From positions 1 to 38,819 of the forward strand of contig JAJZBS010000015.1 of NCBI GenBank assembly GCA_021851885.1: a DNA stretch of 38,819 bases. Reading direction: 5' to 3'. Below, piece by piece: positions 10,398 through 34,552 of this stretch (the first letter of the stretch is position 1; every line of letters begins with the position of its first letter). Below the pieces are notes generated by a model. The model did not search any database, had not been told where the DNA came from, and worked only from the letters and a program-made list of their open reading frames with translations. A program made the translations under genes and the position numbers. The DNA comes from Actinomycetes bacterium (lineage in GTDB: Bacteria > Actinomycetota > Acidimicrobiia > Acidimicrobiales > JAMCQF01).

Positions 10398-10413
10398 GCC
10401 GGTCAGGTGCGCC
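10398..10413 (-). promoter_or_regulatory. GGCGCACCTGACCGGC leader element, relaxase copy
   Basis: A perfect 16-bp consensus copy on the minus strand ends at the base before the relaxase GTG. Just upstream, ACCTC and GAGGT flank a 9-base loop and could form a hairpin. No usual Shine-Dalgarno lies at normal distance. Confidence 0.7.
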
Positions 10414-10559
10414 GGGGTTACCTCGTGGTGCAAGAGGTGTGGACCGGCCCGGTGCGGCTGAGGCTCAGGGCGGAGCGAGCGTGTGTTCGGCGAGCGGCAG
10501 AGGGGCAGTAGCTCGGACCGTCGTAGCGGCACGGGGTTGACGGAGGATCGAAGCAGTCG

Positions 10560-11123
10560 CTACGCGCTGCCGATGACCGTCGTGACGATCTTGTGGACTT
10601 CCGTGCCGTCGGGCGGCGCGGTCTCCTGGTCGGTGCAGAGCAGGTGGACGGCACCGGTGAGAGTGGGAGCGAGAGTGCGGACGTCGGTGTCGTGGGCGAG
10701 GCGCCCCAGGTTCCGCTCGGCCGCGAGGTAGGCGCGGATCATGGCGGTTCCTTCGCCGAGAAGGGGGATGCGGGCGGTTCCGGCCTCGCGTAGCCGGGTC
10801 CGAAGGTTGTCACGAGCGATGATGAGCCCGACGATCGCGACCGCGACGGGAGAGAACATCTCGACAAGAGCGTCGGTGAGGTTGTCGGCCACGGTGCCCG
10901 TTCCAGCCGAGTCGAGCAGGGCCTGCGTTTGTGCCTCCAGACGGGTGATCCGGTCGAGCACGAGTTCGGACAAGAAGGCGTCGAAGTCAGCGAAGTGCCG
11001 ATGTACCAGTCCCTTGGCGACTCCCGCCTCGGCAGTGACCGCACGGCTGGTCAACGAGTTTGGCCCGCCGCGCAGCAGGACGCGCTCGGCAGCGTCAAAG
11101 AGCTGTTGTTGCGCATCGTGCAT
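10560..11123 (-). CDS. TetR-family transcriptional regulator
   Basis: The protein has 187 residues from ATG 11,123, which has GGAG at the right spacing; the frame continues 14 residues further up to a TTG. The N-terminal TetR domain reads AQQQLFDAAERVLLRGGPNSL, then SRAVTAEAGVAKGLVHRHF with the HTH at about residues 25-45. The helical C-terminal part would bind a ligand. It is divergent from a methyltransferase gene and the 70-bp gap holds that gene's promoter, so it most likely represses it and itself. The signal molecule is unknown. It lies between the relaxase and channel modules. Confidence 0.88.
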   Translation of the reverse strand: MHDAQQQLFDAAERVLLRGGPNSLTSRAVTAEAGVAKGLVHRHFADFDAFLSELVLDRITRLEAQTQALLDSAGTGTVADNLTDALVEMFSPVAVAIVGLIIARDNLRTRLREAGTARIPLLGEGTAMIRAYLAAERNLGRLAHDTDVRTLAPTLTGAVHLLCTDQETAPPDGTEVHKIVTTVIGSA

Positions 11124-11159
11124 CGGCACTCCGGTCGGCAAGCTACGTCCCTTCTCGGG

Positions 11160-11188
11160 TTGCAAGTGGGCACGCGCTCATTTATAGT
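11160..11188 (+). promoter_or_regulatory. Strong promoter of the methyltransferase gene, probably leaderless
   Basis: TTGCAA (11,160-11,165) and TATAGT (11,183-11,188) are separated by 17 bp. The ATG at 11,195 lies 7 bp behind the -10, at the expected first transcribed base, so the mRNA would have no leader. The heptamer AGTGGGC occurs at 11,165-11,171 and 11,187-11,193, 22 bp apart, over the promoter, and may be the operator of the divergent TetR protein. Confidence 0.75.
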
Positions 11189-11194
11189 GGGCGC

Positions 11195-12010: not shown

Positions 12011-12416
12011 TCCAGCCTCGACAGACGCCGAGCGCCCACGCTCATCTCATCAGCCAAGGACCGCTCGCCGGGGCGTCGTCCGCGGCCATGTCGTCACAGC
12101 TATCGGCGTGTTGCGCGATCACTTGCCCGAGCCCTGGACTCTCGACGCTCTGGCTGAGGAAGTTCACCTTTCGCGTTCCCAACTCGCGCGGTCTTTCGAT
12201 GCGACGGTCGGCATGAGCCCGATGGCCTATCTGCGTCAGATGCGGGTCGAGCGGATGGCGCGGCTGCTGGTCTCCACGGACCTTTCGGTTGCCGAGACCG
12301 CCCGCTCGGTCGGCTGGAGGAACCAGTTTCACGCCAGCCAGTGCTTTCATGCCGCCTACGGCGTCTCGCCCACCGAGTTTCGCCGCCAGCACACCACGCC
12401 GCCACCTATCGCCTGA
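12000..12416 (+). CDS. Short AraC-type transcriptional regulator, copy 2
   Basis: The protein has 138 residues, mostly an AraC/XylS double helix-turn-helix domain (LDALAEEVHLSRSQLARSF and SVAETARSVGWRNQFHASQC). It is a paralogue of the gene at 5336-5782, with which it shares nearly the whole domain and long identical DNA runs. N-terminal sequences differ. The gene overlaps the methyltransferase by 11 bp and so is coupled to it. Both copies end a cargo group, and between them lie the relaxase and TetR genes. Either both regulate their own neighbours or both read the same site in the element. Confidence 0.84.
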   Translation: MPPDPASTDAERPRSSHQPRTARRGVVRGHVVTAIGVLRDHLPEPWTLDALAEEVHLSRSQLARSFDATVGMSPMAYLRQMRVERMARLLVSTDLSVAETARSVGWRNQFHASQCFHAAYGVSPTEFRRQHTTPPPIA

Positions 12417-12736
12417 CCACGCCCTCTCACCTAACGCTGCGCGCGGATCGAGTGTCGAGAGGCACCTGCCAGAGCACTCGGCGAGAGACTTGCCATGTCG
12501 GCCGTGAGCAGGGGAACTGGCGGCGACAGCATGGGCATTTCTGGACGGCGCGAATCCATACGGGCCGGTCGCATCGTGCGCCTGGTGGCCCCGGCTGTGC
12601 CGGAGTCGGGTGCTATGGCTGGTGGTGAGCCTGCCGTGTTGTTTGGAGTGGATGGAGTGGTGACCGGGCTCGTCTTGCGTACCTGGCCTACGACACGCCG
12701 CCGGTCGGCGGCTGATGTGGGTCAGGAGGAGCGGCG
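12417..12736 (+). other. 320-bp gap before ardC with a degenerate leader element
   Basis: I see no convincing gene here. A GCGTACCTGGCC sequence (12,678-12,689) resembles the repeated leader element with one changed core base. It is followed by a perfect hairpin, GCCGCC-GGTC-GGCGGC (12,697-12,712), and then by the AGGAGGAG Shine-Dalgarno of the next gene. A partial GGCACCTGCC is at about 12,463. The start of the transfer operon probably lies in this gap, but no clear -35/-10 pair was found. Confidence 0.45.
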
Positions 12737-13849
12737 ATGGCGCCAGGTAGGACGACAGCCAAGACGGCGGATGAGGTTCGGGAGGCTCGTGAAGCGAAGC
12801 TGACTGAGCTGTCGGGCCGGCTGGAGGGCGCGGTCGGTCGGCTGGTGTCGGGTGAGGATTGGGTGGCGGCGGTGCGGTTCGCGGCGCGGTTTCGGTCGCG
12901 GTCGTTCGCGAACACGTTGCTGATCTTCGCCCAGCATCAGGACGCTTTCGAGCAGGGGCGGGTGAGCGAGCCGTTCCCGTCGTATGTGGCGGGATACGAG
13001 CAGTGGAAAGCCTTGGGCCGTCAGGTCGCCAAGGGCCAGACGGGCTACATGATCTACGCGCCCGTGACCGCACGGTTCGCGACGACGAGCCCGGCGGATG
13101 CGGAGTCGTGGCGTCGCCTAGATCGTGGCGAGAAGGCCCGGCCGGGTGAGGTTGTGCGGTCCAAGATGGTCGGCGTCAAGCCGGCCTACGTGTGGGACGT
13201 GAGCCAGACCGGCGACGAGCCGGTCCCCGAGCGCGTCCGCCCGCGGCTGCTGGCTGGTGAGGCACCCGCGGGGTTGTGGGAGGGCCTGGCCGCCCAGGTC
13301 CGCGACCACGGTTTCACACTGGCCGATGCGCCGGATGCGGTGGCGCTGGGCGGCGCGAACGGGGTGACGGACTTCCTGGCGCGCACGGTCCAGGTCCGGG
13401 CGGACATGGATGACGCGGCGAGGGTCAAGACGTTGGCGCACGAGCTGGCGCATATCGAGTTGGGGCATGAGGATCGCCGCCCGGACGGGTTGCATCGCGG
13501 GATCGGGGAGGTCGAGGCCGAGTCGGTCGCGCTGATGGTGTGCGCGAGCTTCGGGCTCGACTCGACCGACTACACGGTCCCGTATGTCGCGTCATGGTCC
13601 TCGCAGCTCAAAGACAGCTCCCCGCTGGAGGTCATCCGGGCGACGGGCGAGCGCGCACGGACAGCGGCGCTGGCGATCCTCGACGGGCTGCCGGAGGCGC
13701 CGGTCGGGGACGGCGACCCGCCCGGCCTCGACCGCAGCCTCGGAGAGCGAGCGCGGGAACGGCCAGGCGCAGAGCGTGCCACGCCGGTCACCGCCCGCCC
13801 AGCGGCTGCGCCGGTAGAAGTGCGGGAGCCAGCGGCGGTGGGGTGGTGA
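12737..13849 (+). CDS. ardC: ArdC-type antirestriction protein (ssDNA-binding metalloprotease fold)
   Basis: The protein has 370 residues. The N-terminal part (about 20-150) matches the ArdC ssDNA-binding domain, with the typical RSFANTLLIFAQ and YEQWKALGRQVAKGQTG. The C-terminal part has a zinc metallopeptidase site, HELAH at 235-239, with a third ligand in EVEAES (258-262). ArdC proteins are known from plasmids, where they travel with or protect incoming DNA against restriction. The ATG has AGGAGGAG in front of it. The next gene starts inside its stop codon (GTGA). It probably acts early after transfer. The last ~50 residues are low-complexity and Pro/Arg/Ala rich. Confidence 0.86.
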   Translation: MAPGRTTAKTADEVREAREAKLTELSGRLEGAVGRLVSGEDWVAAVRFAARFRSRSFANTLLIFAQHQDAFEQGRVSEPFPSYVAGYEQWKALGRQVAKGQTGYMIYAPVTARFATTSPADAESWRRLDRGEKARPGEVVRSKMVGVKPAYVWDVSQTGDEPVPERVRPRLLAGEAPAGLWEGLAAQVRDHGFTLADAPDAVALGGANGVTDFLARTVQVRADMDDAARVKTLAHELAHIELGHEDRRPDGLHRGIGEVEAESVALMVCASFGLDSTDYTVPYVASWSSQLKDSSPLEVIRATGERARTAALAILDGLPEAPVGDGDPPGLDRSLGERARERPGAERATPVTARPAAAPVEVREPAAVGW

Positions 13850-14727
13850 CCCCGCCGATCACGCCGGTCGAGGTTGTGGCCGAGGCAGGCGCGCTGTCGC
13901 TACCGGACGCCGCGGCAGCGTATGCCAGGGCGGGCCTGTCGGTGTTCCCCTGTGTGCCAGGCGAGAAGCGTCCGTTGACCGAGCACGGGTTCACCGACGC
14001 GAGCACCGATCTGAACCGGGTCGCCGCGTGGTGGCGGCGGTGGCCGCAAGCCAACATCGGACTTGCGACCGGGCGGCCCGGCGGATTCGACGTGCTCGAC
14101 ATCGACGTGCATCCGGGCGGATCGGGATTCCCCGCGTTGCGCCGGGCACGCCAGGCCGGACTTGTCGATGGGTGGACCGTGTTGGCTCGTAGCCCGGCGG
14201 GCGGGGTGCATCTCTACTTCCCGGTCGATCCCGAGCGCGAGCAGCGATCGTGGGCGTTGCCGCAAAGGCATGTGGACTTTCGCGGGGCCGGCGGCTATGT
14301 GATCGCCCCGCCCTCCCGGATCACCACTGAGCGTGGAGCGGTGCGAGGGTATCGGCTGATCGCTGCGGGCTGCGCCCCGCAGCCCGTCGAGGCCGGGGAG
14401 CTGCGCCGCCTGCTTGCCCCGCCACGGCCACGTCCGGCTGCGCGGCCGGGGGTCAGTTTGGCTGGTGGGTCTGGTCAGCGGCTGGGGGCATGGCTGGCGC
14501 TCCAGGCGGAGGGCAACCGCAACCGGGCGCTGTTCTGGGCCGCCTGCCGACAGGCCGAAGCCGGGGTCCCCCAAGACGAAGCACGGCATCTGCTCGGGTC
14601 GGCGGCGGAGCGGACGGGGCTGGGCGAGCGCGAGATCGACGCCACCCTGGCCTCCGCCTACCGCAGTACTACCCGCCGGCACAACGCGCCGGCCGCGAGC
14701 ATCGCGTCGGGAGGGCTGGGTCGATGA
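13846..14727 (+). CDS. Bifunctional DNA primase/polymerase (PrimPol N-terminal domain)
   Basis: The protein has 293 residues from GTG 13,846, which overlaps the ardC stop. The PrimPol fold is shown by AAAAYARAGLSVFPCVPGEKRPL at the start, WWRRWPQANIGLATG near 62-76, the catalytic acidic DID at 85-87 (DVLDIDVHPGG), ARSPAGGVHLYF around 114-125 with H122, and VDFRGAGGYVIAPPS. No helicase domain follows; the remaining ~90 residues end in a helical LASAYRS-like tail. Such proteins prime the complementary strand of the transferred DNA or support replication of the excised element. The next gene overlaps by 4 bp (ATGA). Confidence 0.85.
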   Translation: MTPPITPVEVVAEAGALSLPDAAAAYARAGLSVFPCVPGEKRPLTEHGFTDASTDLNRVAAWWRRWPQANIGLATGRPGGFDVLDIDVHPGGSGFPALRRARQAGLVDGWTVLARSPAGGVHLYFPVDPEREQRSWALPQRHVDFRGAGGYVIAPPSRITTERGAVRGYRLIAAGCAPQPVEAGELRRLLAPPRPRPAARPGVSLAGGSGQRLGAWLALQAEGNRNRALFWAACRQAEAGVPQDEARHLLGSAAERTGLGEREIDATLASAYRSTTRRHNAPAASIASGGLGR

Positions 14728-15464
14728 CTGCGCCGGCACCGAGCGCAACCGTGGTCCTTCCGCGTGGCTCGGGCCGGCTGGTGCTCGGGGTCGCGGTGGC
14801 GGGGACGGTGTTCATCGCGCTGGGCGCGTTCTGGCTGTCGTTCACGTCGCTGTCGGCGCTGGCCCGTGCCTGTGGGATTCCGGCCGGGCGGGCGTGGATG
14901 TGGCCGCTGATCGTGGACGGCGTGATCGTCGTCGCCACCGTCTCGGTCGTCGCGGTGAGCGGCAACGGCCAGGACCGCCACGCGGCCCGCTACCCGTGGC
15001 TGCTGCTGAGCGCCGGGGCCACGGTGTCGGTCCTGGCGAACGCCAGCCACGCGATCGTCGCCGCCGACGCCAGGGTGCCGTCGGTGCTCGCCGCGTTGGT
15101 GGCGGCGGTCCCGCCGGTGGTGCTGGTCGCGATCACGCATCTCACCGTCGAGCTGACCCGCCGCCCACACCCGCGCCCGGCGAGCACGGCAGACACGTCG
15201 GGCCGGACGGCTCAGCGGTCGGCGCGGCCGGTGAGGACGGCGAACCGAGTCGACGGGAGCGGGCCGGTGGGTGAGGCGCTGCGGCTGCGGGCGCACACGT
15301 CGTTGACGAACCGGGAGATCGCCGTCCGGCTCGGGGTGCATCCCTCCACGGTCGGCCGCTGGCTCAAGTCACGAGACGCCCCGACGCTTCCCCCGGCGCG
15401 AGCGCCGTTGGAGCTGCCCGGCGGCAGCGAGCACGAGTCATCTGAGGAAAGGAGACAGCAGTGA
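14724..15464 (+). CDS. DUF2637 membrane protein with C-terminal helix-turn-helix
   Basis: The protein has 246 residues. Four hydrophobic segments lie in the first ~140 residues (about 19-41, 55-75, 90-108 and 118-138), with the DUF2637 pattern GAFWLSFTSLSALARACGIPAGRAW and WPLIVDGVIVVAT. A linker rich in Arg/Thr follows, then a DNA-binding-like helix-turn-helix (LTNREIAVRLGVHPSTVGRWLKSR, about 191-214). DUF2637 proteins are common on actinobacterial plasmids and ICEs and relate to Spd-type spread proteins. A membrane-tethered DNA-binding protein could hold the element at the transfer site; that role is inferred. It is coupled to the genes on both sides by 4-bp overlaps. Confidence 0.8.
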   Translation: MTAPAPSATVVLPRGSGRLVLGVAVAGTVFIALGAFWLSFTSLSALARACGIPAGRAWMWPLIVDGVIVVATVSVVAVSGNGQDRHAARYPWLLLSAGATVSVLANASHAIVAADARVPSVLAALVAAVPPVVLVAITHLTVELTRRPHPRPASTADTSGRTAQRSARPVRTANRVDGSGPVGEALRLRAHTSLTNREIAVRLGVHPSTVGRWLKSRDAPTLPPARAPLELPGGSEHESSEERRQQ

Positions 15465-15820: not shown

Positions 15821-15948
15821 CCCTCCACCGTCTGCGTGCCTGCGCTGCCGTGCCGTGTGAGCGGCCCGTCTCGGGGATGTTGCTGATGGCCTGACGCCCG
15901 CGGGCGAACCTCAGTGGTGTTCCTTGGGCGGCTGCGGTGGCGCGAGGC

Positions 15949-15957
15949 GCGCACCTG
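15949..15957 (+). promoter_or_regulatory. GCGCACCTG leader element, copy before the 15,967 gene
   Basis: The core is intact and is followed by TTGGTTGCC and the ATG at 15,967. ACC and GGT could pair around TGTT. No normal Shine-Dalgarno lies between the element and the start. Confidence 0.6.
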
Positions 15958-15966
15958 TTGGTTGCC

Positions 15967-16821
15967 ATGCCCGCCCACCCGTTTCCCCGCCAGGTTCCCG
16001 CGCCGGCCACGATGCCGGGCGCCGGGTCCGAGCCGGCGTTCGCCAGCTCGGCGGGCTTGCGCGCGCTCCTTGACCGACTCCATCAGGCCGGGGACGGGGC
16101 ATGGCGGAGCGACCCCGAAGCGACCGCGCTGCTGGCGTACACGATCGACAGGTACGCCCCGCTGGCGCGCAGTTGGCACCGCGACCCCGGCGAGGCCGCC
16201 TCGGCGGCGTTCGTGGCGATGCGCCAAGACGGGGTACGCCGGGCGGACGATCCCTGGGCGGTCGTCACCCGCGCGGTGCAGGTCAGCCTCTCGGCGGAGA
16301 ATCACGCCGAGCGGCACCTGACCTCGACCGAGAAGGCGCGGCGCACCCAGCACGCCGAGCAGGACGCGCCGGTCCGGGCCGGTGAGCTGACCGACACGCT
16401 CCCCTTCGCGATCCTCGACCCGCAGCGCGAACCGGAAGTCGAGCCGGTGATCGCCGATGCGATCGTGCTGCTGGAGCTGCTGGGCTGGCCGGCGCTCCTG
16501 GCCGGCGCGGTCGTGGAGTACGTCGCCGGGCGGCTGGCCGACGCGGGCGGCATCCCTGCCGCCTATGAGGCGTTGCGGCGCGACGCCGCGTTCTGCGCGC
16601 AGCTCGACCTCGACCGCCAGGCGTGGGCCGGGCTGCTCGGCGTGCTGCTCGGCTCCCGGCCCCAGCCGGGACGCCCGACCCGCAAAGGCGTCCTGGCGCG
16701 GTTGCTCTTGGGCGAGACGGTGCGCGACCTGTTGGACGACACCGCCCTGGTGCGCTCGGTGCTCGCCTGCCGCCCACGGTCCCACACCGTCGCGCCGTTG
16801 GGGGACGACGCCGATGAGTAG
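15967..16821 (+). CDS. Hypothetical protein of the transfer module, weakly sigma-factor-like
   Basis: The protein has 284 residues from ATG 15,967; a GTG at 15,937 would place the leader element inside the gene. No family is recognised with confidence. The part TIDRYAPLARSWHRDPGEAASAAFVAMR followed by DDPWAVVTRAVQVSLSAENHAERH resembles in outline the region-2 helices of sigma-70 factors (a YxxLAR...DAxxAxxxAF pattern). The second half (LLELLGWPALLAGAVVEYVAGRLADAGG) is helical and may hold an HTH. The gene overlaps the ParB-like gene by 8 bp. A DNA-binding or regulatory role is possible. Confidence 0.6.
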   Translation: MPAHPFPRQVPAPATMPGAGSEPAFASSAGLRALLDRLHQAGDGAWRSDPEATALLAYTIDRYAPLARSWHRDPGEAASAAFVAMRQDGVRRADDPWAVVTRAVQVSLSAENHAERHLTSTEKARRTQHAEQDAPVRAGELTDTLPFAILDPQREPEVEPVIADAIVLLELLGWPALLAGAVVEYVAGRLADAGGIPAAYEALRRDAAFCAQLDLDRQAWAGLLGVLLGSRPQPGRPTRKGVLARLLLGETVRDLLDDTALVRSVLACRPRSHTVAPLGDDADE

Positions 16822-17887
16822 TGGTGGCGTGGAGCTGGACCGGCCGGTCGCCTCGATCCGGGTCGGCTACCGCTTCCGCCACGACCTCGGGGACCTGGAC
16901 GAGCTGTGCGACTCGATCCACAGGCTCGGGTTGTTGCAGCCGATCACGATCACCCCCGACGGCACGCTGGTCTGCGGCGCCCGCCGCCTCGCCGCGGTCA
17001 AGCGGCTCGGGTGGGAGCGGGTCAAGGTCTGGATCACCGCTACCGTCTCGACCCGGCTGGGCGAGGTGCTGGCTGAGCAGCATGAGAACACGATCCGCAA
17101 GCCGTTCACCCCGACCGAGGCCGCCGCGCTCTATGTCGAACTGAAGGCTCTGTATGCGGCTGACGCGGCTCGCCGCCAGCAAGCGACTCGTTTCGGCTCC
17201 GACAAGAGCGACGGTGGTGGAAAGTTTCCACCACCGCAGAGCCCGGCCCCGGCGGGGAAGGCGCGCGAGCAGGCGGCAAGGGCGATCACCGGCCAGGACT
17301 CCTCCAAGTCGCTGGACCGCGTGATCCAAGTTCAACACCTGGCCGACGACCCCGCCACCCCGGACCCAGTGCGGGAGATTGCGCGTCGGGAGCTGGCCGA
17401 GATGGACTCCGACGGACGGGTCCACGGCCACTACATGAGTGTCCAGGCCGCCGCCAGCACCGACACTCTCGCTCGCCTGGCCGGCGACCCCGCGCAGCCT
17501 GAGCCGGTCCGGGAGCGCGCCGCGGGCGAGCTGGATGCGTTGGACCGCAGCCAGCCTCCGGCGGAGCTGGTCAAGGCCGCGCAGGCGGCCATCGCCCGCG
17601 CCACGAACCTGAGCGCCGACGATGACGGCGCTGACGGGCTTCGGCTGGTGGCGGTCAAGCGGTACGGGCTACGCGCGTTCCTGGCGACCGTCAATGAGAT
17701 GGACGGCTGGTGGCGCCACTACGACCCCGCCGAGATCGCCGCCGGCCTGTCTGATGAGCAGTGGCAGCGGTTGTGCGCCTGCCTGGACGGCAGCGCCGAG
17801 CTCATCCGCGCGATCGGCGACGCCCGCCACGACCGCCCGCCGGGCGAGCCGGTAGCGGACCGGCCACCACGCGCCGCGTGCTTCTGA
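16814..17887 (+). CDS. ParB N-terminal domain protein
   Basis: The protein has 357 residues from ATG 16,814. The N-terminal ParB/Srx-like nucleotide-binding fold is clear: IRVGYRFRHDLGDLDELCDSI, LGLLQPITITPDGTLVCGARRLAAVKRLGW with the GARR box at about 56-60, and an EVLAEQHENTIRKPFTPTEAAAL segment equivalent to ParB box II. The rest is helical, with repeats of LAxDPAxPxPVRExA (about 178-190 and 220-232). Chromosomal ParB proteins are CTP-dependent DNA clamps. This one has no partner parA in the window and may act as a transfer or maintenance regulator. It starts inside the end of the preceding gene. Confidence 0.82.
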   Translation: MSSGGVELDRPVASIRVGYRFRHDLGDLDELCDSIHRLGLLQPITITPDGTLVCGARRLAAVKRLGWERVKVWITATVSTRLGEVLAEQHENTIRKPFTPTEAAALYVELKALYAADAARRQQATRFGSDKSDGGGKFPPPQSPAPAGKAREQAARAITGQDSSKSLDRVIQVQHLADDPATPDPVREIARRELAEMDSDGRVHGHYMSVQAAASTDTLARLAGDPAQPEPVRERAAGELDALDRSQPPAELVKAAQAAIARATNLSADDDGADGLRLVAVKRYGLRAFLATVNEMDGWWRHYDPAEIAAGLSDEQWQRLCACLDGSAELIRAIGDARHDRPPGEPVADRPPRAACF

Positions 17888-17916
17888 GCCGACACCACGA
17901 GCAAACAGGGGCGAGT

Positions 17917-17932
17917 GGCGCACCTGACCGGC
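17917..17932 (+). promoter_or_regulatory. GGCGCACCTGACCGGC leader element, copy before the VirB8-like gene
   Basis: A perfect 16-bp consensus copy 30 bp past the ParB-like stop. It precedes the Shine-Dalgarno GGGAG (17,953-17,957) and the GTG start at 17,963. Confidence 0.7.
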
Positions 17933-17962
17933 GACCCGTCCTCGATCTGCCTGGGAGTGACC

Positions 17963-18655: not shown

Positions 18656-18673
18656 CGGACCCGGTGGCCGGTG

Positions 18674-19831: not shown

Positions 19832-19856
19832 CCGGGACCGGCCGGGTTGGTGGGGC

Positions 19857-19873
19857 GGCGCACCTGTGGTGCG
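19857..19873 (+). promoter_or_regulatory. GGCGCACCTG leader element with hairpin at start codon
   Basis: CGCACC (19,859-19,864) pairs perfectly with GGTGCG (19,868-19,873) around TGT. The last G is the first base of the GTG start, so the hairpin would hide the start codon. Confidence 0.7.
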
Positions 19874-20190
19874 TGAACCTCCTGACCTCCATCCACGCCT
19901 CAGCGGCCATCGCGGTGGCTGCGGTGGGCGTCTACCCGAACCTCAACGGTGTTGGCGGCGCCAGCCAGCTCGACACCGTGATCGGCGCGCTGATGACGAT
20001 CGTGCTGATCGTCGCGGTGTTGATGATCGCGGTCTGCGCCGCCACCTGGGCGGTCGCCTCCGCGCACGGCAACTACCAGACGGCCACCAAAGCCCGCACC
20101 GGCCTGTTGGTCGCTGTCGGTGCCGCCGCGCTCGACGGCGCCGGGATCGCGTGGCTGAACTTCCTGCTGAGCATCGGCCCCACCCTGTAA
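19873..20190 (+). CDS. Pilin-like two-helix membrane protein, copy 1
   Basis: The protein has 105 residues from GTG 19,873. It shows PNLNGVGGASQLDTVIGALM, a hydrophobic helix at about 38-62 (TIVLIVAVLMIAVCAATWAVAS) and a second at about 78-97 (LLVAVGAAALDGAGIAWLNFLL). This is the build of a VirB2/TrbC-type pilin and of the DUF6112 family of actinobacterial ICEs. The next gene is a tandem paralogue. No signal peptide cleavage site can be assigned. The role as pilin or inner-membrane channel subunit is inferred from size, topology and place before the TrbL-like gene. A hairpin covers its start codon. Confidence 0.7.
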   Translation: MNLLTSIHASAAIAVAAVGVYPNLNGVGGASQLDTVIGALMTIVLIVAVLMIAVCAATWAVASAHGNYQTATKARTGLLVAVGAAALDGAGIAWLNFLLSIGPTL

Positions 20191-20235
20191 CCGCCCGGCC
20201 GGTTACGCGGTCGAGACGGAGCGGTGGCGCGGCGG

Positions 20236-20250
20236 GCGCACCTGCGAGGT
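20236..20250 (+). promoter_or_regulatory. GCGCACCTG leader element with AGGTG hairpin
   Basis: CACCT (20,239-20,243) and AGGTG (20,247-20,251) form a perfect 5-bp stem around GCG. A further CACCG/CGGTG pair lies downstream (about 20,265-20,285), before the AAGGGAG Shine-Dalgarno of the gene at 20,319. Confidence 0.65.
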
Positions 20251-20318
20251 GAACCCCGCCGTGAGCACCGGCCTGTTGTCGGTGGCGTGCGGGTCCGTGC
20301 TGCAAGGGAGCCCGTCCG

Positions 20319-20660
20319 ATGATCTCTGTCCTTTCCTCCGTCACGACCGGCCTGCGCGGCGTGCTCGACCGATCCAGTCTCGTGCTGGCCAACATCAACA
20401 TCTCGCCGAACTCCAACGGCCTGCCCGGCATCACCGCCTTGCAGAAGATCGTCGGGGCGGTCATGACCGTCGGCCTCATCCTGAGTGTGCTGGCACTGAT
20501 CGTCGCCGCGGTGGTGTGGGCGTTCGGGTCGCACTCCGCGAACCCGCACTTGGCGACGCGCGGGAAGGCCGGGGTGCTGATCGCGTGTGGCGCGGCGATC
20601 GTCACCGGCGGCGCGGTCGCGTTCATCAACTTCTTCTGGAACGTCGGCCAGGGCATCTGA
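20319..20660 (+). CDS. Pilin-like two-helix membrane protein, copy 2
   Basis: The protein has 113 residues from ATG 20,319, with AAGGGAG in front. It aligns with the preceding protein along its length: PNxNGxxG, IGAxMT versus VGAVMT, WA near the end of helix 1, and GxLxAxGAAxxxGxxxAxxNF in helix 2. Hydrophobic segments are at about 46-68 and 83-105. The first ~30 residues differ. It is a DUF6112-type protein with VirB2-like build. The two copies may be major and minor pilin subunits or form a mixed ring. The TrbL-like gene follows after 12 bp and is probably co-translated. Confidence 0.7.
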   Translation: MISVLSSVTTGLRGVLDRSSLVLANINISPNSNGLPGITALQKIVGAVMTVGLILSVLALIVAAVVWAFGSHSANPHLATRGKAGVLIACGAAIVTGGAVAFINFFWNVGQGI

Positions 20661-20672
20661 AGGCGCGCCGCG

Positions 20673-23665: not shown

Positions 23666-23678
23666 GCCGGGTGCGGCC

Positions 23679-23694
23679 GGCGCACCTGACCGGC
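23679..23694 (+). promoter_or_regulatory. GGCGCACCTGACCGGC leader element, copy before the 23,726 gene
   Basis: A perfect consensus copy 14 bp past the preceding stop. GCCGG (23,676-23,680) and CCGGC (23,690-23,694) enclose the CGCACCTGA core in a 5-bp stem. Confidence 0.7.
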
Positions 23695-23725
23695 ATGACC
23701 GGACTTCCAATGCGGAGTGTGGCTG

Positions 23726-24181
23726 ATGCCGACCTATGAGAACCCTGCGGCCGACGCCGGCGAGGCCGCCGAAGCACTCCGCGGCCTGGCGCACGCCAGC
23801 CGGAACATCACCAACCCGAGCGAGACCTACCGGGTGCTCGGGTCGCTCTCGACCGCCCTGGCCTCCCTTCAGCAGTCGCTCGATCAGCTCGCCGACTGGA
23901 ACGACCGCAACGCCGGGCGTGCCGCGACCGACGACGGCGGCCACCGTGCCGGTAGGCACGAAGCGGTATCGACCGGCGTATCCCTACGCGACGCCGCCGA
24001 CCGGGTGCGGCAAGCGCATCGGTCGCTGAACGAGGCGTTCAGTCACAACGGCCGGATCGCCTGGCAGCCCAGCAGCGACCTCACCCGCCGGCCACGCGGC
24101 GGGCCCGGGCGCCTGGCGCCGCCGTCAGCATTCGCCGCGGACACCGCCTCGCGGGAGGGGCCGAACCCGCTCGGCCGCTGA
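23726..24181 (+). CDS. Hypothetical helical protein between the two VirB4 halves
   Basis: The protein has 151 residues from ATG 23,726 (GGAG at 23,714-23,717). No family was recognised. Residues ~10-55 and 85-105 are helical, with heptad-like spacing (AEALRGLAHASRNITNPSETYRVLGSLSTALASLQQSLDQLADW), while the C-terminal third is Arg/Pro/Gly-rich and probably disordered. Similar small helical proteins stand at this place in other actinobacterial elements, from memory. Being placed between the SCO6880-like gene and the ATPase gene suggests a part in assembling the channel. A leader element stands before and after it. Confidence 0.6.
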   Translation: MPTYENPAADAGEAAEALRGLAHASRNITNPSETYRVLGSLSTALASLQQSLDQLADWNDRNAGRAATDDGGHRAGRHEAVSTGVSLRDAADRVRQAHRSLNEAFSHNGRIAWQPSSDLTRRPRGGPGRLAPPSAFAADTASREGPNPLGR

Positions 24182-24196
24182 GGCGGCGGTCAGCTC

Positions 24197-24228
24197 GGCG
24201 CACCTGACCGGCAGACACCTGTTCTGCC
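24197..24228 (+). promoter_or_regulatory. GGCGCACCTGACCGGC leader element with hairpin, copy before VirB4 ATPase
   Basis: The consensus lies at 24,197-24,212, directly continued by GGCAGA (24,210-24,215) pairing with TCTGCC (24,223-24,228) around CACCTGT. The Shine-Dalgarno AAGGGAG follows, before the ATG at 24,249. Confidence 0.7.
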
Positions 24229-24248
24229 GTGAAGGGAGCCGGCCGCTG

Positions 24249-25742: not shown

Positions 25743-25804
25743 GGATCGGCGGCCCGGTCGCGTGTCCTGCGGCCTGGCTGCGCACGTACTGGCAGATGGA
25801 CGGT

Positions 25805-25827
25805 CCCACGCACCTACCGGGCGTGGG
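25805..25827 (+). promoter_or_regulatory. Variant leader element (CGCACCTACCGGGC) inside a 7-bp hairpin
   Basis: CCCACGC (25,805-25,811) pairs with GCGTGGG (25,821-25,827); the loop is ACCTACCGG. The core differs from consensus by loss of the G after ACCT. Another partial copy, GTGCACCTGACAC, is at 25,881-25,893. Both lie before the proposed start at 25,916. Confidence 0.5.
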
Positions 25828-25915
25828 ACGAGCAGAACAACCGGGTGGCAGTGACGGCACGCTGACGCGCGCCCGCCACGGTGCACCTGACACTCATCTC
25901 GATCGGTCCGCGGCC

Positions 25916-26431
25916 GTGGCGGTTCCGGTGGTGCTGCCGCAGGCGGTCGTCACCGTCGATGACAGCGGCCACGCCCGGATCGCGGTCGAGAACATCGACT
26001 GCCAAGCGATCGACTGCCCAGACAGGCCGATCGGCCGCGGCGAGATGGGCGTGGTGCTGGCGGGCATCGCCGAGCAGATCGGCGGGCCGGTCCGGGTCGA
26101 GGTTCGCGAGCCCGACGGGTCGCGCTACGCCGACATCCTCCAGCCCCGCACCCCAGCTCCTGACCCCGACAGCGAGCACGAGAGGGATGAGCCGGATGAG
26201 GCGCCGCTGTTGTGGGGGGAGGGGTTCTTGCCGGATGAGACGGTGCTTGTCGCCGTCGTCGTGGCGACCGTGCAGGCCCAGCCGGACGGCTCGGCCTCGC
26301 TGGCCGCCCTGCCTGGCCCGGTGCGATCCGGCGGTGAGGTGATCTTGTTCGGCGGCGCATCCGGGCGCGTCGTCCAAAGACAGCTCCCCACAGTCCCGGT
26401 AGCTCGCAAGTGTCGGTGGTGGCGTCGATGA
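25916..26431 (+). CDS. Hypothetical protein upstream of the coupling protein
   Basis: The protein has 171 residues from GTG 25,916, the most likely start since the leader elements lie before it; the frame is open from GTG 25,739. It begins VAVPVVLPQAVVTVDDSGHARIAVE, then VVLAGIAEQIGGPVRVEVREPDGSRYADIL, which resembles a compact alpha-beta domain. An acidic stretch (DPDSEHERDEPDEAPLLWGEG) and a second beta-rich part (ETVLVAVVVATVQAQPDGSASLAALPGP) follow. Proteins of this kind lie next to coupling-protein genes in actinobacterial elements, from memory. Its stop overlaps the coupling protein start as ATGA, so it may be a partner of that protein. Confidence 0.6.
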   Translation: MAVPVVLPQAVVTVDDSGHARIAVENIDCQAIDCPDRPIGRGEMGVVLAGIAEQIGGPVRVEVREPDGSRYADILQPRTPAPDPDSEHERDEPDEAPLLWGEGFLPDETVLVAVVVATVQAQPDGSASLAALPGPVRSGGEVILFGGASGRVVQRQLPTVPVARKCRWWRR

Positions 26432-28191
26432 GCCGCCAGACGGCCCGGTCGGGCAACGACACCGCCATCAACCTCGGGCTCGGCCTGATCGCCGCGCTCG
26501 GCGTGCTCGCCGGGCTGCTGCGCGCCGCGGGCACGATCGCCGCCTGGATCACCGGCGTCAGGCGGCCGGCCGGGAGCATCGGCGCCGGGCTGGCGGTGCT
26601 CGCCCAGCCGACCCGGCCCGCGGTGGCGTTGCGGGCGCCGGGGCTGAGCCCGTTCGCCTACTGGGCCGTCGTCACCGTCTTGCTGATCGTGGCCGGGCTG
26701 GTCGCCTGGCTGGCGGCGCAACTGGTCCGCTCGCAGGACTCCGGCGACGACCCGCGCAGGCGGGCCGGGCTCGCGACCACCGCACAGGTGCGCAAGGTGG
26801 CCTCTGGGCGGGCGCTGCGGCGCCGGGGCGTCACGCTGCGCCCCTCGCTGCACAGGCCGTCCCCGGCCGAGGTCGGGTACCTGCTTGGTCGTGCGAAGGG
26901 CAAGCAGGTTTGGGCCAGCGTGGAGGACTCGATGCTGCTGATCGGCCCGCCCCGCTCCGGCAAGGGCCTCCATGTCGTCATCAACGCGATCCTCGACGCT
27001 CCCGGTGCGGTGGTGACGACCTCGACCCGCCCCGACAACCTCACCGTCACTCTCACTGCCCGGCAGAAGGTCGGGCCGGTCGCCGTGTTCGACCCCCAGC
27101 ACTTGGCGCCCGGCCTCCCCGCCGGGTTGCGGTGGTCGCCGGTCCGTGGCTGTGAGGACCCGTTGACGGCGATGATCCGCGCCGCCGGCCTCGCCGCCGG
27201 CACCGGATTGGGCGGTGGCGGTGTGGAGGGTGGCGGGTTCTGGGAGGGCAAGACCGCCGCCGCCATCCAAGCCCTGCTGCACGCCGCCGCGCTGGACGGC
27301 CGCGACGCCCGCACGTTGTACCAGTGGGCGCTCAACCCAACCGCGGCGGCGGATGCTGTTCACGTCCTTCAGTCCGACAGTCGGGCGGCGGAGGGGTGGG
27401 CGGACTCGCTCGGGTCGATGATCGACTCCGACCCCCGCACCCGCGACTCGATCTGGCAAGGCGTCGGCCTGGCCTTCAACGCGCTCGCTGACCCCCGCGT
27501 CCTCGACGCCGTAACACCGAGAGACGGCGATGGCTTCAACCCCGACACCTTCCTGACCGAGCACGGCACCCTCTACCTGCTCGCCACCGGCGCCGGGGCC
27601 GGCGCTTCTGCCGCGTTGGTGTCGGCGTTCATCGAGGACTTGACCGAGACCGCCCGCCGCCACGCGGCGCGCTCACCCGGCGCCCGCCTCGACCCGCCGC
27701 TGCTCATGGCGCTGGATGAGATCGCCGGCCTCGCGCCGCTGCCGTCCCTGCCGACGTTGATGTCGGACGGCGGCGGGACCGGGATCACGACGCTGACGGT
27801 GTTGCAGTCGATGGCGCAGGCCCGGCAGAAGTGGGGCGAGAACCAGGCCGCCGCGATCTCCGACACCGCGATCGTCAAGATCATCCTCGGCGGCGAGTCC
27901 AACAGCCGCGACCTCCAAGACCTCTCCACCCTCATCGGCGAGCGCGACGAGACCACCGACTCGACCACCACCGACGCCACCGGCGGCCGGTCACATCAGC
28001 GCTCGATCCGCCGCGTGCCGATCCTGCCCCCGGACGCGCTCCGAACCATGCCGTTCGGGCTCGGAACGATCCTCCTGCGCGCCGCCCCACCGATCATCAC
28101 CGACCTGCGTCCCTGGACGGGCCGCACAGACGCCGACCAGCTCACCGCCGACCGCCGCCTGATCGAGCAGGCGTTGCGCTCCGCCGCCTGA
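26428..28191 (+). CDS. VirD4/TraG-type coupling protein (T4CP)
   Basis: The protein has 587 residues from ATG 26,428 (a GTG at 26,410 is also in frame, but the ATGA overlap favours the former). Hydrophobic N-terminal segments lie at about 15-41 and 76-99. Walker A GPPRSGKG is at 173-180, Walker B LLMALDEIAGL at 425-435, and AQARQKWGENQAAAI with its IILGGESNS motif follows. It links the relaxase-DNA complex to the channel and pumps DNA. Its C-terminal tail is short. A 98-bp gap holding a structured leader precedes ssb. Confidence 0.9.
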   Translation: MSRQTARSGNDTAINLGLGLIAALGVLAGLLRAAGTIAAWITGVRRPAGSIGAGLAVLAQPTRPAVALRAPGLSPFAYWAVVTVLLIVAGLVAWLAAQLVRSQDSGDDPRRRAGLATTAQVRKVASGRALRRRGVTLRPSLHRPSPAEVGYLLGRAKGKQVWASVEDSMLLIGPPRSGKGLHVVINAILDAPGAVVTTSTRPDNLTVTLTARQKVGPVAVFDPQHLAPGLPAGLRWSPVRGCEDPLTAMIRAAGLAAGTGLGGGGVEGGGFWEGKTAAAIQALLHAAALDGRDARTLYQWALNPTAAADAVHVLQSDSRAAEGWADSLGSMIDSDPRTRDSIWQGVGLAFNALADPRVLDAVTPRDGDGFNPDTFLTEHGTLYLLATGAGAGASAALVSAFIEDLTETARRHAARSPGARLDPPLLMALDEIAGLAPLPSLPTLMSDGGGTGITTLTVLQSMAQARQKWGENQAAAISDTAIVKIILGGESNSRDLQDLSTLIGERDETTDSTTTDATGGRSHQRSIRRVPILPPDALRTMPFGLGTILLRAAPPIITDLRPWTGRTDADQLTADRRLIEQALRSAA

Positions 28192-28225
28192 GCTAGTGGG
28201 CACCGAGCGGGCGGTGGGGAGTGAC

Positions 28226-28260
28226 TGCGCACCTCTCAGGTGGAGCACCGCCCGGTGCTC
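28226..28260 (+). promoter_or_regulatory. Leader element and double hairpin before ssb
   Basis: TGCGCACCT begins at 28,226. CACCT/AGGTG (28,230-28,234 and 28,238-28,242) form one stem and GAGCACC/GGTGCTC (28,243-28,249 and 28,254-28,260) a second. The sequence CCGGTGCTCG also occurs at 34,546-34,555 with a matching stem. Confidence 0.68.
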
Positions 28261-28289
28261 GCTTATGACCCGAGCCTGGGAGGTACATC

Positions 28290-28760: not shown

Positions 28761-28793
28761 CCACGGCGGTTACGCGAATCGGAGGCGTGGATC

Positions 28794-31700: not shown

Positions 31701-34481
31701 AGCGAGTGGGTGTGGGAAGACCCCGCCCGCGCCAAGACCCTGGTCGACGAGTACAACCGCCGGTTCAACTCGATCGTGCTGCGGGACTACACGGGTGCCG
31801 GGGAGTACCTGTCGCTGCCCGGCATGGCCGCGTCGTTCACACCCGGCGCGCATCAGCGTGCCGCGACCGCGCGGATGATCGCCGAGCCCGCCGCCGGCCT
31901 GTTCCACGAGGTCGGGGCGGGCAAGACGGCCGAGATGATCATGGGCGCGATGGAGATGCGCCGCATGGGGCTCATCGCCAAGCCGGTCGTGGTTGTCCCG
32001 AATCACATGCTGGAGCAGTTCGGCCGGGAGTGGCTTCAGATCTACCCGCGCGCCCGCATCCTCGCCGCCTCCAGCGCCGATCTCACCGCTGACCGGCGAC
32101 GCTTGTTCGTCGCCCGCGTAGCGGCCAACGAGTGGGACGCGGTGATCCTCACCCAAGGCGCGTTCGCGAAGATCCCGCTACGGCCCGAGACGCAGACGGC
32201 GTACATCCAACGCCAAGTGGACGACGTTCGCGGCGTGCTGCAAGACGCCAAGACCGGAGAGCGGATGAGCATCAAGCGGATCGAGCGGCGCCTGCTCCTG
32301 CTGGAGAACAAGCTCAAGGCCCGCACCGACCTCAGCCGTGACCGCGGCGTGTGCTTCGAGGACACGGGCCTGGACTACGTGATCGTCGACGAGATGCATA
32401 TGTACAAGAACCTCGCCACCGACTCCAACATCCGTGACGCGGCGATCGAGGGGTCCGAGCGCGCCTCGGATTTGCACATGAAGCTGGAATACCTGCGCGC
32501 CCAAGGCCGCGACCGCGTGGCGACCGGGGCGACCGCGACGCCGATCGCCAACAGCGTCACCGAGGCGTACGTCATGCAGCGCTACCTGCGCCCGGACCTG
32601 TTGGACAAGGCCGGGATCGGCGCGTTCGACGCCTGGGCCGCCACGTTCGGGCAGACGGTCACGCAGATGGAGATGGCCCCGACCGGCAACGGGTTCCGGA
32701 TGAAGACCCGGTTCGCGAAGTTCTCCAACGTCCCCGAGATGCTGCGCGTCTGGTCGGTGTTCGCCGACGTCAAGACTGCCGCCGACCTCCGTCTCCCCAC
32801 CCCCGACCTGGCGGCACGCGACGACGGCCAACGCGCCCCGGTCACGGTCGCGGTGCAGCCCACCTTGGAGCTAGAGCAGTTCATCGAGCACCTCGGCGAG
32901 CGCGCCGAGCGGGTCGCGGCCAAAGCGGTCCGGCCGGATGAGGACAACATGCTCAAGATCTCCACCGACGGCCGCAAGGCCGCCCTGGACATCCGCATGG
33001 TCCTCCCGCACGACCCGTCGGGGCCGACCAAGGTCGATGCTGCCGCCGACGCCATCCACCGAGTCTGGGAACAAACCCGCGAGAACGAGTACCTGGACAC
33101 GATCACCGGCCAGCCATCACCCATCCGCGGGGCGCTCCAGTTGGTGTTCTCCGACATCGGCACCCCCAACCCGGACCGATGGAACGCCTACGACGAGCTG
33201 CACCGCGAGCTCGTCGCCCGCGGGATGCCCAGCGACGCGATCCGCTTCATGCACGAAGCCAAGACCGACGTGGACAAGGCCCGGCTGTTCGCCGCCGCCC
33301 GCGCTGGCCACATCGCCGTCCTCATCGGGTCCACGGAGAAGATGGGCGTCGGGACCAACGTGCAGGCGAGAGCGGTCGCCTTGTATCACCTTGACTGCCC
33401 CTGGCGGCCGTCTGACATCGCGCAACGCGAGGGCCGCATCTTACGCCAAGGCAACCAGAACCCGGAGGTCGCGATCGTCCGGTTCGTGACCGAGCGGTCC
33501 TTCGACTCCTATATGTGGCAGGGCGTCGAGCGCAAGGCCACGTTCATCGCCCAAGTCATGCGCGGCAAGCTCGACAGCCGCGAGATCGACGAGATCGACT
33601 CAAGCGCCCTGTCCGCCGCTGAGGCCAAGGCCATCTCATCCGGCAACCCCTTGTTGTTGGAGCACTCGACCGTGCAGAACGAGGTCGGCCGGCTGCGCCG
33701 CCTGGAGCGCGCCTACCAGCGCAACGAGAACATGCTCATCCACACCCGCCGCGACGGCGAACACGCCGCCGAACGAGCCACCGCCGACATCGCCGGGCTG
33801 GAAGCCGCCCTGCCCAGAGTGACCGACACCGCCGGCGACCGCTTCCGCATCCAACTCCACGACCGCACCTGTACCTCCCGCGTCGACGCCGGCACTGCGC
33901 TGGCCCGATGGGCGAACAACAGCGACCTGAAATGGGCGCCCAGCTACACCAGCCGCGACTACGGCATCGTCGGCACCATCAGCGGCTTCCCGATCCACCT
34001 CGCGCTCCGGCCCGGCTATGACGGCGCCAACATCGACATCACCCTCGACGGCGTACCGCGCAGCACCTTCACCGTCCCCCGAGACACGCTGCTCGAAGGC
34101 GGCGTCGGGCTCATCCAACGCATCGAGAACCGCGTCTCGGGCATCCCGTCCCTGCTTGACCACGCCCGCGACGACCTCACCACCGCCCGCCAGACCATCG
34201 CCGACGCTACCCAGCGGATCGGCCAACCCTTCCGACACGCCGCAGCCTTGCGCGACGCCGAACGGCACTTGACCGACCTCGAGGCCAAGCTCGCAGAACT
34301 CAACGAGGCCCCGCCTGAACCATCGGACCCGCCGCCCGACCAACGGATCACGGTCGAGACCCTCCACGCCCACCGCGACCCGCCCGCCAGACCGACGCCG
34401 CAGCGCCAAGAGCCGCCGACCTTCGTCCGAGCCGGACACGACACCAGCCAGCCACGGCCGGCTCCCGGCATGAGCTGGTAG
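28794..34481 (+). CDS. Giant DNA methylase-helicase (DarB/SNF2-like) with uncertain N-terminus
   Basis: The frame gives 1895 residues from GTG 28,794. The first ~45 residues look genuine (QLELDLWGMSPAEADEQL). About 46-225 are the out-of-frame image of the gene at 28,930-29,475, and the conserved part starts near 226 (GRFVPATPDDLAPSGAKARF). A methylase domain has VLEPGSGVGTF at 349-359 and NVPFG at 412-416, in place of NPPY/F. A superfamily-2 helicase has Walker A GAGKT at 1041-1045, DEMH at 1199-1202, TGATATP and QREGRILRQG at 1544-1553. Coiled regions follow. Phage P1 DarB has a similar layout and protects DNA from restriction, so that is the likely role. No in-frame ATG/GTG lies near 29,475; the first is GTG 29,553. 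Confidence 0.85.
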   Translation: MAREAPGQLELDLWGMSPAEADEQLTADRAAEPAGSDQPVSQEDRDEPLREDRPAALGETRAEPGGGPAGPDPVLQRPGSRGGGPGERPGGEDRVAAPTLFDRAILGEGRPVSDGQENSGGGRDGRAGVDQGPGAAAARGSRGVGADPPGRREPDRLGGAHPGLPGLDARDRGAGGDGADLGAVGGVPGGVGGDRAAAGLHARQPAGLGGGGEHPLLARAAPREQQLEPAGRFVPATPDDLAPSGAKARFQANVAAIRLARTLSEQAHPASSDEQRVLARWSSWGAIPDVFDQAKDNWADERAELRSLLSDSEWDAAARTTINAHYTDPLIARQMWRALRDLGFTGGTVLEPGSGVGTFIGLAPGTAQMTGVELDPITAAISAALYPHATIRAESFADTRLAEGSFDAAIGNVPFGNVTLHDPVHNPARQSMHNHFILKSLALTRPGGMVAVLTSHFTMDAQNPGARREMSDLADLVGAVRLPTGAHRRTAGSDVVTDLLLFRRREPERSPADTSWETVVPTTIDGTPMKINSYFDNRPDNMLGQVGTSRGMHGADTLTITGDLGRLEDDLADILDQITTAARQEGLVMSDRSPEQEARRAAAVPAAAELWDGTIVAGHGGFSTVAGGELQPLNVPRSVAVELRALLGLRDGASRLLTLEAATVDDSEEVTDARSALRHDYERYVSRYGPINRYTLRATGRINETGDPTFARIVPSAVRLLRSDPFGPLVLALERFDDQDQTALPAAILHRRVVAPRAEVRGVETPVDAVAVSLDRTGEIDLALIADLLGMPEPEARQALAGMVFTDPDTAELVHAPAYLSGDVRAKLNAARARAAADPSFQANVDALAEVLPPDLGVEDITARLGAVWISEGTHQQFLRELLRSEDVAVENPLPGMWEVRGGRQGILATSEWGTARRPAPDIAQALMEQRTLLVYDEHEDADGKARRVLNPMETTAAQEKADALQERFSEWVWEDPARAKTLVDEYNRRFNSIVLRDYTGAGEYLSLPGMAASFTPGAHQRAATARMIAEPAAGLFHEVGAGKTAEMIMGAMEMRRMGLIAKPVVVVPNHMLEQFGREWLQIYPRARILAASSADLTADRRRLFVARVAANEWDAVILTQGAFAKIPLRPETQTAYIQRQVDDVRGVLQDAKTGERMSIKRIERRLLLLENKLKARTDLSRDRGVCFEDTGLDYVIVDEMHMYKNLATDSNIRDAAIEGSERASDLHMKLEYLRAQGRDRVATGATATPIANSVTEAYVMQRYLRPDLLDKAGIGAFDAWAATFGQTVTQMEMAPTGNGFRMKTRFAKFSNVPEMLRVWSVFADVKTAADLRLPTPDLAARDDGQRAPVTVAVQPTLELEQFIEHLGERAERVAAKAVRPDEDNMLKISTDGRKAALDIRMVLPHDPSGPTKVDAAADAIHRVWEQTRENEYLDTITGQPSPIRGALQLVFSDIGTPNPDRWNAYDELHRELVARGMPSDAIRFMHEAKTDVDKARLFAAARAGHIAVLIGSTEKMGVGTNVQARAVALYHLDCPWRPSDIAQREGRILRQGNQNPEVAIVRFVTERSFDSYMWQGVERKATFIAQVMRGKLDSREIDEIDSSALSAAEAKAISSGNPLLLEHSTVQNEVGRLRRLERAYQRNENMLIHTRRDGEHAAERATADIAGLEAALPRVTDTAGDRFRIQLHDRTCTSRVDAGTALARWANNSDLKWAPSYTSRDYGIVGTISGFPIHLALRPGYDGANIDITLDGVPRSTFTVPRDTLLEGGVGLIQRIENRVSGIPSLLDHARDDLTTARQTIADATQRIGQPFRHAAALRDAERHLTDLEAKLAELNEAPPEPSDPPPDQRITVETLHAHRDPPARPTPQRQEPPTFVRAGHDTSQPRPAPGMSW
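28930..29475 (+). CDS. Hypothetical protein nested in the methylase-helicase gene
   Basis: The protein has 181 residues from ATG 28,930, with AGGAGG at 28,918-28,923 and a GTG three bases earlier. It lies in the +1 frame of the long methylase-helicase frame. It reads MNRYGRTARQHWERH, DPTRFFSDLGAEVEAQVNDLAARIASL, EPYLEKVARFQTARRTAEEVVMAELVWI, then an acidic helical C-terminal half. This is a natural, soluble helical protein, not a shadow; its third codon positions are G/C. From memory, MNRYG-type proteins with a YLEKVxRxxxAR motif occur next to helicase genes in actinobacterial elements; the function is unknown. Its stop is directly followed by the conserved start of the helicase. Confidence 0.82.
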   Translation: MNRYGRTARQHWERHAPSLVAGLPDPTRFFSDLGAEVEAQVNDLAARIASLRQPCSTEPYLEKVARFQTARRTAEEVVMAELVWIKDPELPLPEAREEWEQTRPADENLIAWAERIQDYPASMPATEELEEMAQTWALSVEFLEELVATEPPRDYMLANQPALAEAANIRFWRELRRVNNS

Positions 34482-34515
34482 CCGCCCCGACCTCGCTCGC
34501 CGCTGGGCAGCAACA

Positions 34516-34552
34516 GCGCACCTGCCCGGTAACGGCACCGGACCGCCGGTGC
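34516..34552 (+). promoter_or_regulatory. Leader element and hairpin before the DUF4913 gene
   Basis: GCGCACCTGCCCGG (34,516-34,529) is followed by a perfect stem, GCACCGG (34,535-34,541) and CCGGTGC (34,546-34,552), loop ACCG. The stem resembles the second hairpin before ssb. Confidence 0.68.

Follow-up and report, generated by a model that had tools for sequence, protein, structure and literature searches.

A conserved oriented motif upstream of transfer genes in actinobacterial conjugative elements, a candidate element-specific core promoter

Gene content of the element and distribution of the motif

The window, i.e., the whole stretch of 38,819 nucleotides that was analyzed, encodes a TrwC-type relaxase, an ArdC-like protein, a Prim-Pol, a DUF2637/helix-turn-helix (HTH) protein, a ParB-like protein, an NlpC/P60 protein, members of the SCO6881 and SCO6880 families, a VirB4-like ATPase, a coupling protein, an SSB-like protein, a large SNF2-like helicase and a serine recombinase. 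By this gene content, the element is an integrative conjugative element of actinobacteria whose channel is type IV-like. The original prediction had reported a short sequence upstream of independently started transfer genes of this element, and all the sites that it listed were found, within 1 bp. The copies and their neighboring genes are given below, where position 1 of the motif is the first G of GCGYACCTG and the coordinates of each copy span positions -9 to 17.

6828-10397, minus strand: TrwC-type relaxase gene (PF08751, E 2e-93), with GTG at motif position 16
10396-10422, minus strand: copy before the TrwC/MobF relaxase gene, exact 16-mer, profile scores 21.1 and 19.9
10397, minus strand: predicted +1 of the relaxase copy, the G of the GTG start (leaderless)
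12667-12693, plus strand: copy before the ArdC-like gene (start 12737), profile score 18.5
14490-15464, plus strand: DUF2637 and HTH protein, upstream of the sigma-like ORF
15939-15965, plus strand: copy before the sigma-like ORF, whose ATG at 15967 is 3 nt past the predicted +1, profile score 17.7
15967-16821, plus strand: unannotated 284-aa protein, candidate sigma-like factor
16823-17887, plus strand: ParB-N-domain protein (PF02195, E 1e-5), second candidate DNA-binding factor
17908-17934, plus strand: copy before the gene starting at ~17963, exact 16-mer, profile score 21.8
19848-19874, plus strand: copy at the gene 19873-20190, GTG precisely at position 16, profile score 15.9
20226-20252, plus strand: copy before the ORF starting at 20319, profile score 21.0, conserved in L001, L002, L003 and L014
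23670-23696, plus strand: copy before the gene starting at 23726, exact 16-mer, profile score 24.8
24188-24214, plus strand: copy before the VirB4-like ATPase gene (24249), exact 16-mer, profile score 22.1, kept before virB4 orthologues
25798-25824, plus strand: variant copy ACGCACCTA, GG at -9/-8, profile score 14.6
25823-26431, plus strand: gene with GTG precisely at motif position 16, its orthologues with RTG at 16
28217-28243, plus strand: copy before the SSB-like gene (GTG 28290), profile score 18.7
34506-34532, plus strand: copy before the gene starting at 34584, profile score 19.0

As had been claimed, four copies carry the whole 16-mer GGCGCACCTGACCGGC, which occurs nowhere else in the 3.29 Mb assembly. 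The copy at 12,678, formerly described as degenerate, proved to be a normal variant (GCGTACCTG), position 4 being C or T. The "variant" at 25,809 is a genuine site, conserved in L002 and with a GTG at position 16, although its position 1 is 25,808. The copy at 28,227 has GCGCACCTC, and orthologues of the gene at ~17963 in other elements start with ATG at position 16. For the sites examined, it also holds that the gaps of the transfer module contain a copy and the cargo genes do not.

Two cargo genes of the window without a motif copy are those of a TetR-type regulator (10560-11165, minus strand) and a methyltransferase (1852-3396). The serine recombinase gene (35609) is preceded, at a distance of 33 bp, by a degenerate copy with GG at -9/-8 (GCTCACCTG, 35566-35592) that deviates at G3 and R16 and has a score of only 4.2; the recombinase is probably outside the regulon.

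Significance and conservation of the motif

The motif is genuine and conserved. An independent profile was trained on 211 sites from other genera, leaving out the window together with the loci closest to it, L001, L002, L003 and L014; L002 and L003 belong to Microlunatus endophyticus CGMCC 4.7306 and Metallococcus carri DB0510, respectively. This profile gave 11 matches scoring at least 16 in the window, compared to a mean of 0.18 and a maximum of 2 in dinucleotide shuffles. Two of these matches sit within coding sequence (16492, plus strand, and 28571, minus strand) and are probably due to chance, and the genuine copies at 19858 (15.9) and 25808 (14.6) score slightly under the cut of 16. Allowing at most three mismatches, the 16-mer was found 10 times vs. 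3.2 expected (0 of 100 shuffles); the 9-mer core, when one mismatch is tolerated, shows no excess over shuffles (29 found vs. 31 expected). In the whole genome, GG-N8-GCGYACCTG-N5-YR matches at 10 places, eight of them within the element. An additional exact copy of the core on the minus strand (26,785-26,793), antisense within the coupling-protein gene, has a profile score of only 9.9 and probably arose by chance.

Using relatives of virB4, we collected 80 loci from many actinobacterial genera. The motif was found upstream of virB4 in many of those loci in which virB4 does not overlap the preceding gene. A scan with the seed GCGYACCTG gave 141 matches on the virB4 strand and 33 on the opposite one, with 19 and 46, respectively, for the reversed controls, and most of the co-directional copies were located directly upstream of a gene start. 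The profile was then iterated with a threshold tied to opposite-strand matches, as a fixed threshold drifted, resulting in 339 matches co-directional with virB4 vs. 26 opposite ones and in 238 non-redundant sites. The resulting logo reads G-9 G-8, N8, G1 C2 G3 Y4 A5 C6 C7 T8 G9, C11, G13 G14 Y15 R16 A17, with nearly zero information beyond the stretch from G-9 to A17. Thus, the extended signal obtained from ~240 non-redundant sites of the 80 related conjugative loci, GG-N8-GCGYACCTG-N3-GGYR, exceeds the unit described earlier by the GG at -9/-8 and the GGYR at 13-16. Its spacing is fixed, with Y15 in 229 and R16 in 237 of the 238 sites, and the YR bias is already present in seeds picked by GCGYACCTG alone (75/81 and 78/81). 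The logos differ among clades, e.g., the Leucobacter/Microbacterium clade has T4 and a shifted upstream box, while the largest clade has C2/T2 and a loose G9, as would be expected if a trans-acting factor diverged together with its site.

These data agree with the earlier proposal of an element-wide control signal: the motif is element-specific, strand-biased and located upstream of orthologous genes in many genera. We found no named family for it, either in Rfam or in the searched literature, where the motif is printed in no paper. The scan of the window with Rfam 15 yielded no match above the gathering score, and the matches in L006, L038 and L053 lie elsewhere or fall below the threshold. 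Among side observations, L053, a Nesterenkonia relative of the element, has a group II intron match (RF00029) above the gathering score at 8127-8227, and the motif profile assigns a score of 14.9 to an apparent tRNA-Ala gene in L137 (G299:C1 near 331612, minus strand; GAGCACCTGCTTTGCAAGCAGG), whose anticodon arm seems to resemble the motif by chance.

Start codons at position 16 and a putative core promoter

In four gene families, start codons were found exactly at motif position 16. The gene following virB4 has an RTG there in eight elements (the window, L002, L013, L042, L048, L053, L055 and L071), the family of the gene at 19873 has a GTG in five (the window, L001, L002, L003 and L014), and the g17954 family has its start codon there in seven of 19 sites; the fourth family is the relaxase, as found in this window. 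No start codons were observed at positions 13 or 22 in the orthologue families, and those families that start at 16 leave no room for a Shine-Dalgarno (SD) sequence between the motif and the start. Among the called starts, 14 are located at position 16, four at 17-28 and 144 at position 29 or beyond, at least 13 nt further on, where most have an SD. This spread fits an RNA starting at position 16, with a leader that is either zero or sufficient for an SD. Because the start caller is biased toward position 16, and a crude count of the first in-frame RTG is no better at this position (11 at position 16, 13 at position 14), the case is built on the orthologue families. Simple ORF-length counts for starts at 16 were weak, and orthologue N-termini were used instead. 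The YR step is near-invariant even where no start codon is present at this position (Y15 in 142 and R16 in all 144 sites).

The fixed YR step, the starts at position 16 and the upstream GG had been overlooked in the original prediction, and together they make a promoter the simplest common function. The conservation, the strand bias, the fixed YR, the position-16 starts in four families and the co-adaptation of the SD arm in one clade were computed directly; the start site, the promoter role and the identity of the factor are inferred. The motif most likely marks the start of RNA synthesis, and a single factor of the element could activate the complete set together. Specifically, we propose, with a probability of roughly 0.58, that it is an element-specific core promoter with +1 at the purine of the YR step, served by one element-encoded factor. 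Transcription would start at the purine of Y15-R16, placing YACCTG at -12 to -7, GCG at -15 to -13 and GG at -25/-24. This promoter would be repeated ahead of each block of the transfer module, and a single element-encoded factor would activate all of them. Genes with ATG or GTG at +1 would be translated from leaderless mRNAs, and the remaining ones would carry a leader with an SD. For the copies of the window, the predicted leader length is 0 nt at 10397, 19873 and 25823, 3 nt for the ORF at 15967 and 30-68 nt for the others. Of the M. tuberculosis genes whose start has been mapped, 26% are leaderless (PMC3898074).

Several features argue against a promoter. The YACCTG at -12 to -7 is unlike the usual TANNNT, there is no conservation at -35, and melting of this GC-rich region would be difficult. 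To our knowledge, the GG at -25/-24 matches no known sigma class. Finally, hairpins involving positions 6-15 require an RNA longer than the +1 transcript, which taken alone favors an RNA element.

Candidate trans-acting factors

The element encodes three candidate DNA-binding factors, the product of the ORF at 15967-16821, the ParB-like protein and the DUF2637/HTH protein. We consider the ORF at 15967-16821 the best candidate, at somewhat less than even odds. All 28 loci that reach sufficiently far contain a member of its family, and a motif copy precedes it here and in many other elements. It occupies the place of the annotated sigma factors in related conjugative plasmids, where these stand at the head of the transfer module, several of them directly after a DUF2637 gene; the same order, a DUF2637 gene followed by the factor, is thus found in both. 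The ParB-like gene always adjoins the sigma-like ORF, in 28 of 28 loci. Among 395 genomes of the class, the sigma-like protein was found only in its own genome and in G299, which has strong motif copies, one preceding the sigma-like gene and one with ATG at position 16. As G299 was found via the protein and not via the motif, it provides an independent link between the two.

An alignment-based model of the protein is helical (pLDDT 82.8; the single-sequence AlphaFold model was poor). In the PDB fold search the best match was sigma32 (E 0.45), and 27 of the 39 listed matches were sigma factors or sigma chains of holoenzymes, none of them significant; mixed matches, none significant, were obtained with the same model in a viral library. 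The ORF has no match in Pfam, NCBIfam or PHROG, the sigma profiles of Pfam and NCBIfam matched none of 27 family members, a PDB sequence search returned nothing at E up to 10, hhalign against host and plasmid sigma alignments stayed below 3% probability, and no homologues were found in phages or viral contigs. Because of the negative sigma profile tests we do not file the protein as a sigma factor, and suggest that it may work like one.

Predicted RNA pairing with the Shine-Dalgarno region

In many elements, pairing of the motif with the downstream SD would constitute a second layer that silences read-through RNA. In an RNA read through from upstream, positions 6-18 (CCUG...) would mask the downstream SD by pairing with it; an RNA started at position 16 would lack the pairing arm and be translatable. 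When the CCT of the motif was forced to fold with the AGG of the SD, 28 of 72 sites did better than shuffled interiors (p <= 0.05). Without any folding, 6-mers from positions 6-13 have exact downstream complements far above permutation, and the 6-mer at 11-16 has 20 vs. 4.2 by permutation (z 9.2). For positions 6-18 against the SD region z is 6.5, compared to ~1 for the control arms and 1.3 for the region past the start. By clade, the SD pairing reaches z 6.1 in the largest one and non-significant values of 1.5 and 0.7 in two smaller ones; all these z values are upper estimates, since homologous sites are not fully independent. An RNA role had been suggested earlier from the CACCT of the motif, which is identical to part of the anti-SD; it stands for a large subset of sites, in one clade, where positions 6-18 pair with the SD region, and does not for the small clade of the window taken alone.

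Examples of pairing are found at position 12677 of the window and at L053:6704, L010:2589 and L019:1350, and an altered end of the motif (CACCTTCC, CACCTCTC) is accompanied by an altered SD (GGGAGG, GAGAGG). According to predicted folding, the mean cost of opening the SD is 5.8 kcal/mol in a long RNA and 3.6 kcal/mol in one started at position 16, and the native upstream arm exceeds swapped arms (p = 7e-5). For the copy at 12667-12693, positions 6-16 are predicted to pair with positions 40-50, adjoining the SD, with an opening cost of 8.4 vs. 1.4 kcal/mol for the long RNA and the RNA from position 16, respectively; in the copy of the SSB-like gene, CCTCTCAGG is predicted to pair with the SD stretch CCTGGGAGG. 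A universal hairpin P1 around the motif (-9 to 0 with ~18-32; z only 0.4-1.4) was rejected as a common feature, and a complementarity to a 16S rRNA stretch was set aside, as a 7-base match is expected by chance.

Alternative explanations

The same pairing could reflect a translational operator, in which the motif is transcribed from upstream and a trans-acting protein of the element or small RNA either switches the SD hairpin between open and closed or, in genes starting at position 16, occludes the start codon. The complements of the 6-mers from positions 6-13, beyond permutation and concentrated on the SD region, would be expected from such an operator, and it fits the anti-SD observation that accompanied the original prediction. 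However, strong SD pairing is confined to one clade, whereas all clades share the sequence motif, and both the YR step and the SD-less RTG at position 16 would be left unexplained. Moreover, matches on the opposite strand are at background (26 vs. 339) and thus give no sign of a conserved small RNA that is complementary to the motif. On balance, we find this explanation doubtful. It is very improbable that the motif is an endonuclease processing site, where polycistronic RNA would be cut between Y15 and R16 into leaderless or SD-freed mRNAs: such cleavage would account for the fixed YR, the starts at 16 and the motif-containing hairpins, but the scanned gene families include no evident dedicated RNase.

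At the DNA level, the motif might be an operator of a non-sigma regulator of the element, either the ParB-like protein (16823-17887) or the DUF2637/HTH protein (14490-15464), acting on ordinary promoters. Both regulator genes are among the first of the transfer module, and the ParB-like one occurs in 28 of 28 loci; fixed contacts across 26 bp are typical of protein-DNA recognition. We nevertheless regard an operator as unlikely, because the site is asymmetric and always oriented toward the gene that follows, the stretch from -39 to -10 shows no conserved signal of an ordinary promoter, and the RTG precisely at position 16 would lack an explanation. As for a compositional accident of GC-rich DNA, with which the frequency of the one-mismatch 9-mer core, no higher than in shuffles, would agree, it is refuted by the independent profile test and by the retention of the motif before orthologues in many genera, and can be practically dismissed.

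Beyond the core promoter proposed above, we tentatively suggest a family of elements with its own transcription system, which would combine a sigma-like factor unrecognizable by sequence, the motif promoters ahead of transfer gene blocks as its sole sites of action, and an anti-Shine-Dalgarno arm silencing read-through. If true, this would perhaps represent a new kind of sigma-like factor, and outside promoters could not express the transfer genes. A promoter doubling as a read-through silencer would explain how an integrated element could stay quiet within foreign transcription units. The control of transfer-gene activation in actinobacterial integrative conjugative elements of the type IV secretion system type is poorly known; a term search of a review on the control of Gram-positive conjugation found Streptomyces and Actinobacteria in the reference list only. 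One signal shared by many genera would define a testable regulon and a means to find and delimit such elements.

Comparison with known systems

The nearest descriptive relatives of the motif are the SAS/ESAS of Cluster K mycobacteriophages and Cluster EF Microbacterium phages (PMC3203893, PMC7302621), which are likewise short, asymmetric, element-specific, intergenic before starts, oriented with the genes and virtually absent from the host genome. The SAS occupies the position of the SD and matches it (GGGATAGGAGCCC), whereas the motif is located ahead of the SD or immediately precedes the start, and its consensus includes no GGGATAGGAGCCC-like sequence at the SD position. It also differs from the SAS by a CCT complementary to the SD, by its other sequence and by the fixed YR at 15/16.

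In phage T4 late genes and homing endonuclease genes (I-TevI, segB), a late promoter is placed so that late transcripts lose one arm of a hairpin, and the ribosome-binding site (RBS) is also sequestered in soc and e (PMC2988022). In T4, transcripts from upstream sequester the RBS and those from the adjacent promoter do not; folding predicts a like behavior for the motif, mainly in one clade. The T4 arrangement occurs case by case, whereas in the element the arm belongs to a single conserved motif that recurs across the transfer module; the T4 mechanism has been experimentally shown, and the present one is predicted from sequence and folding.

The Cluster A stoperators, which PMC3203893 mentions, are 13-bp asymmetric repressor sites. 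They resemble the motif as asymmetric, oriented repeats scattered over a mobile genome, but have no fixed distance to start codons and a different sequence.

Plasmids of Arthrobacter, Citricoccus and Microbacterium share with the element the order of a DUF2637 gene, the factor, a peptidase, the SCO6880 family and the coupling protein; their sigma factors have no detectable sequence similarity to the protein of the window. The motif is absent from the related plasmids that have a different annotated sigma factor in the same place, and a comparable motif of their own was not evident by eye. A plasmid of Arthrobacter ERGS1:01 (L096) has two intergenic copies of CTCCGC(A/GC)ACCATGAACAT(G/C)GTGA before transfer genes (4722-4761 and 12900-13051), and this repeat is possibly the start signal for the plasmid's own annotated sigma factor.
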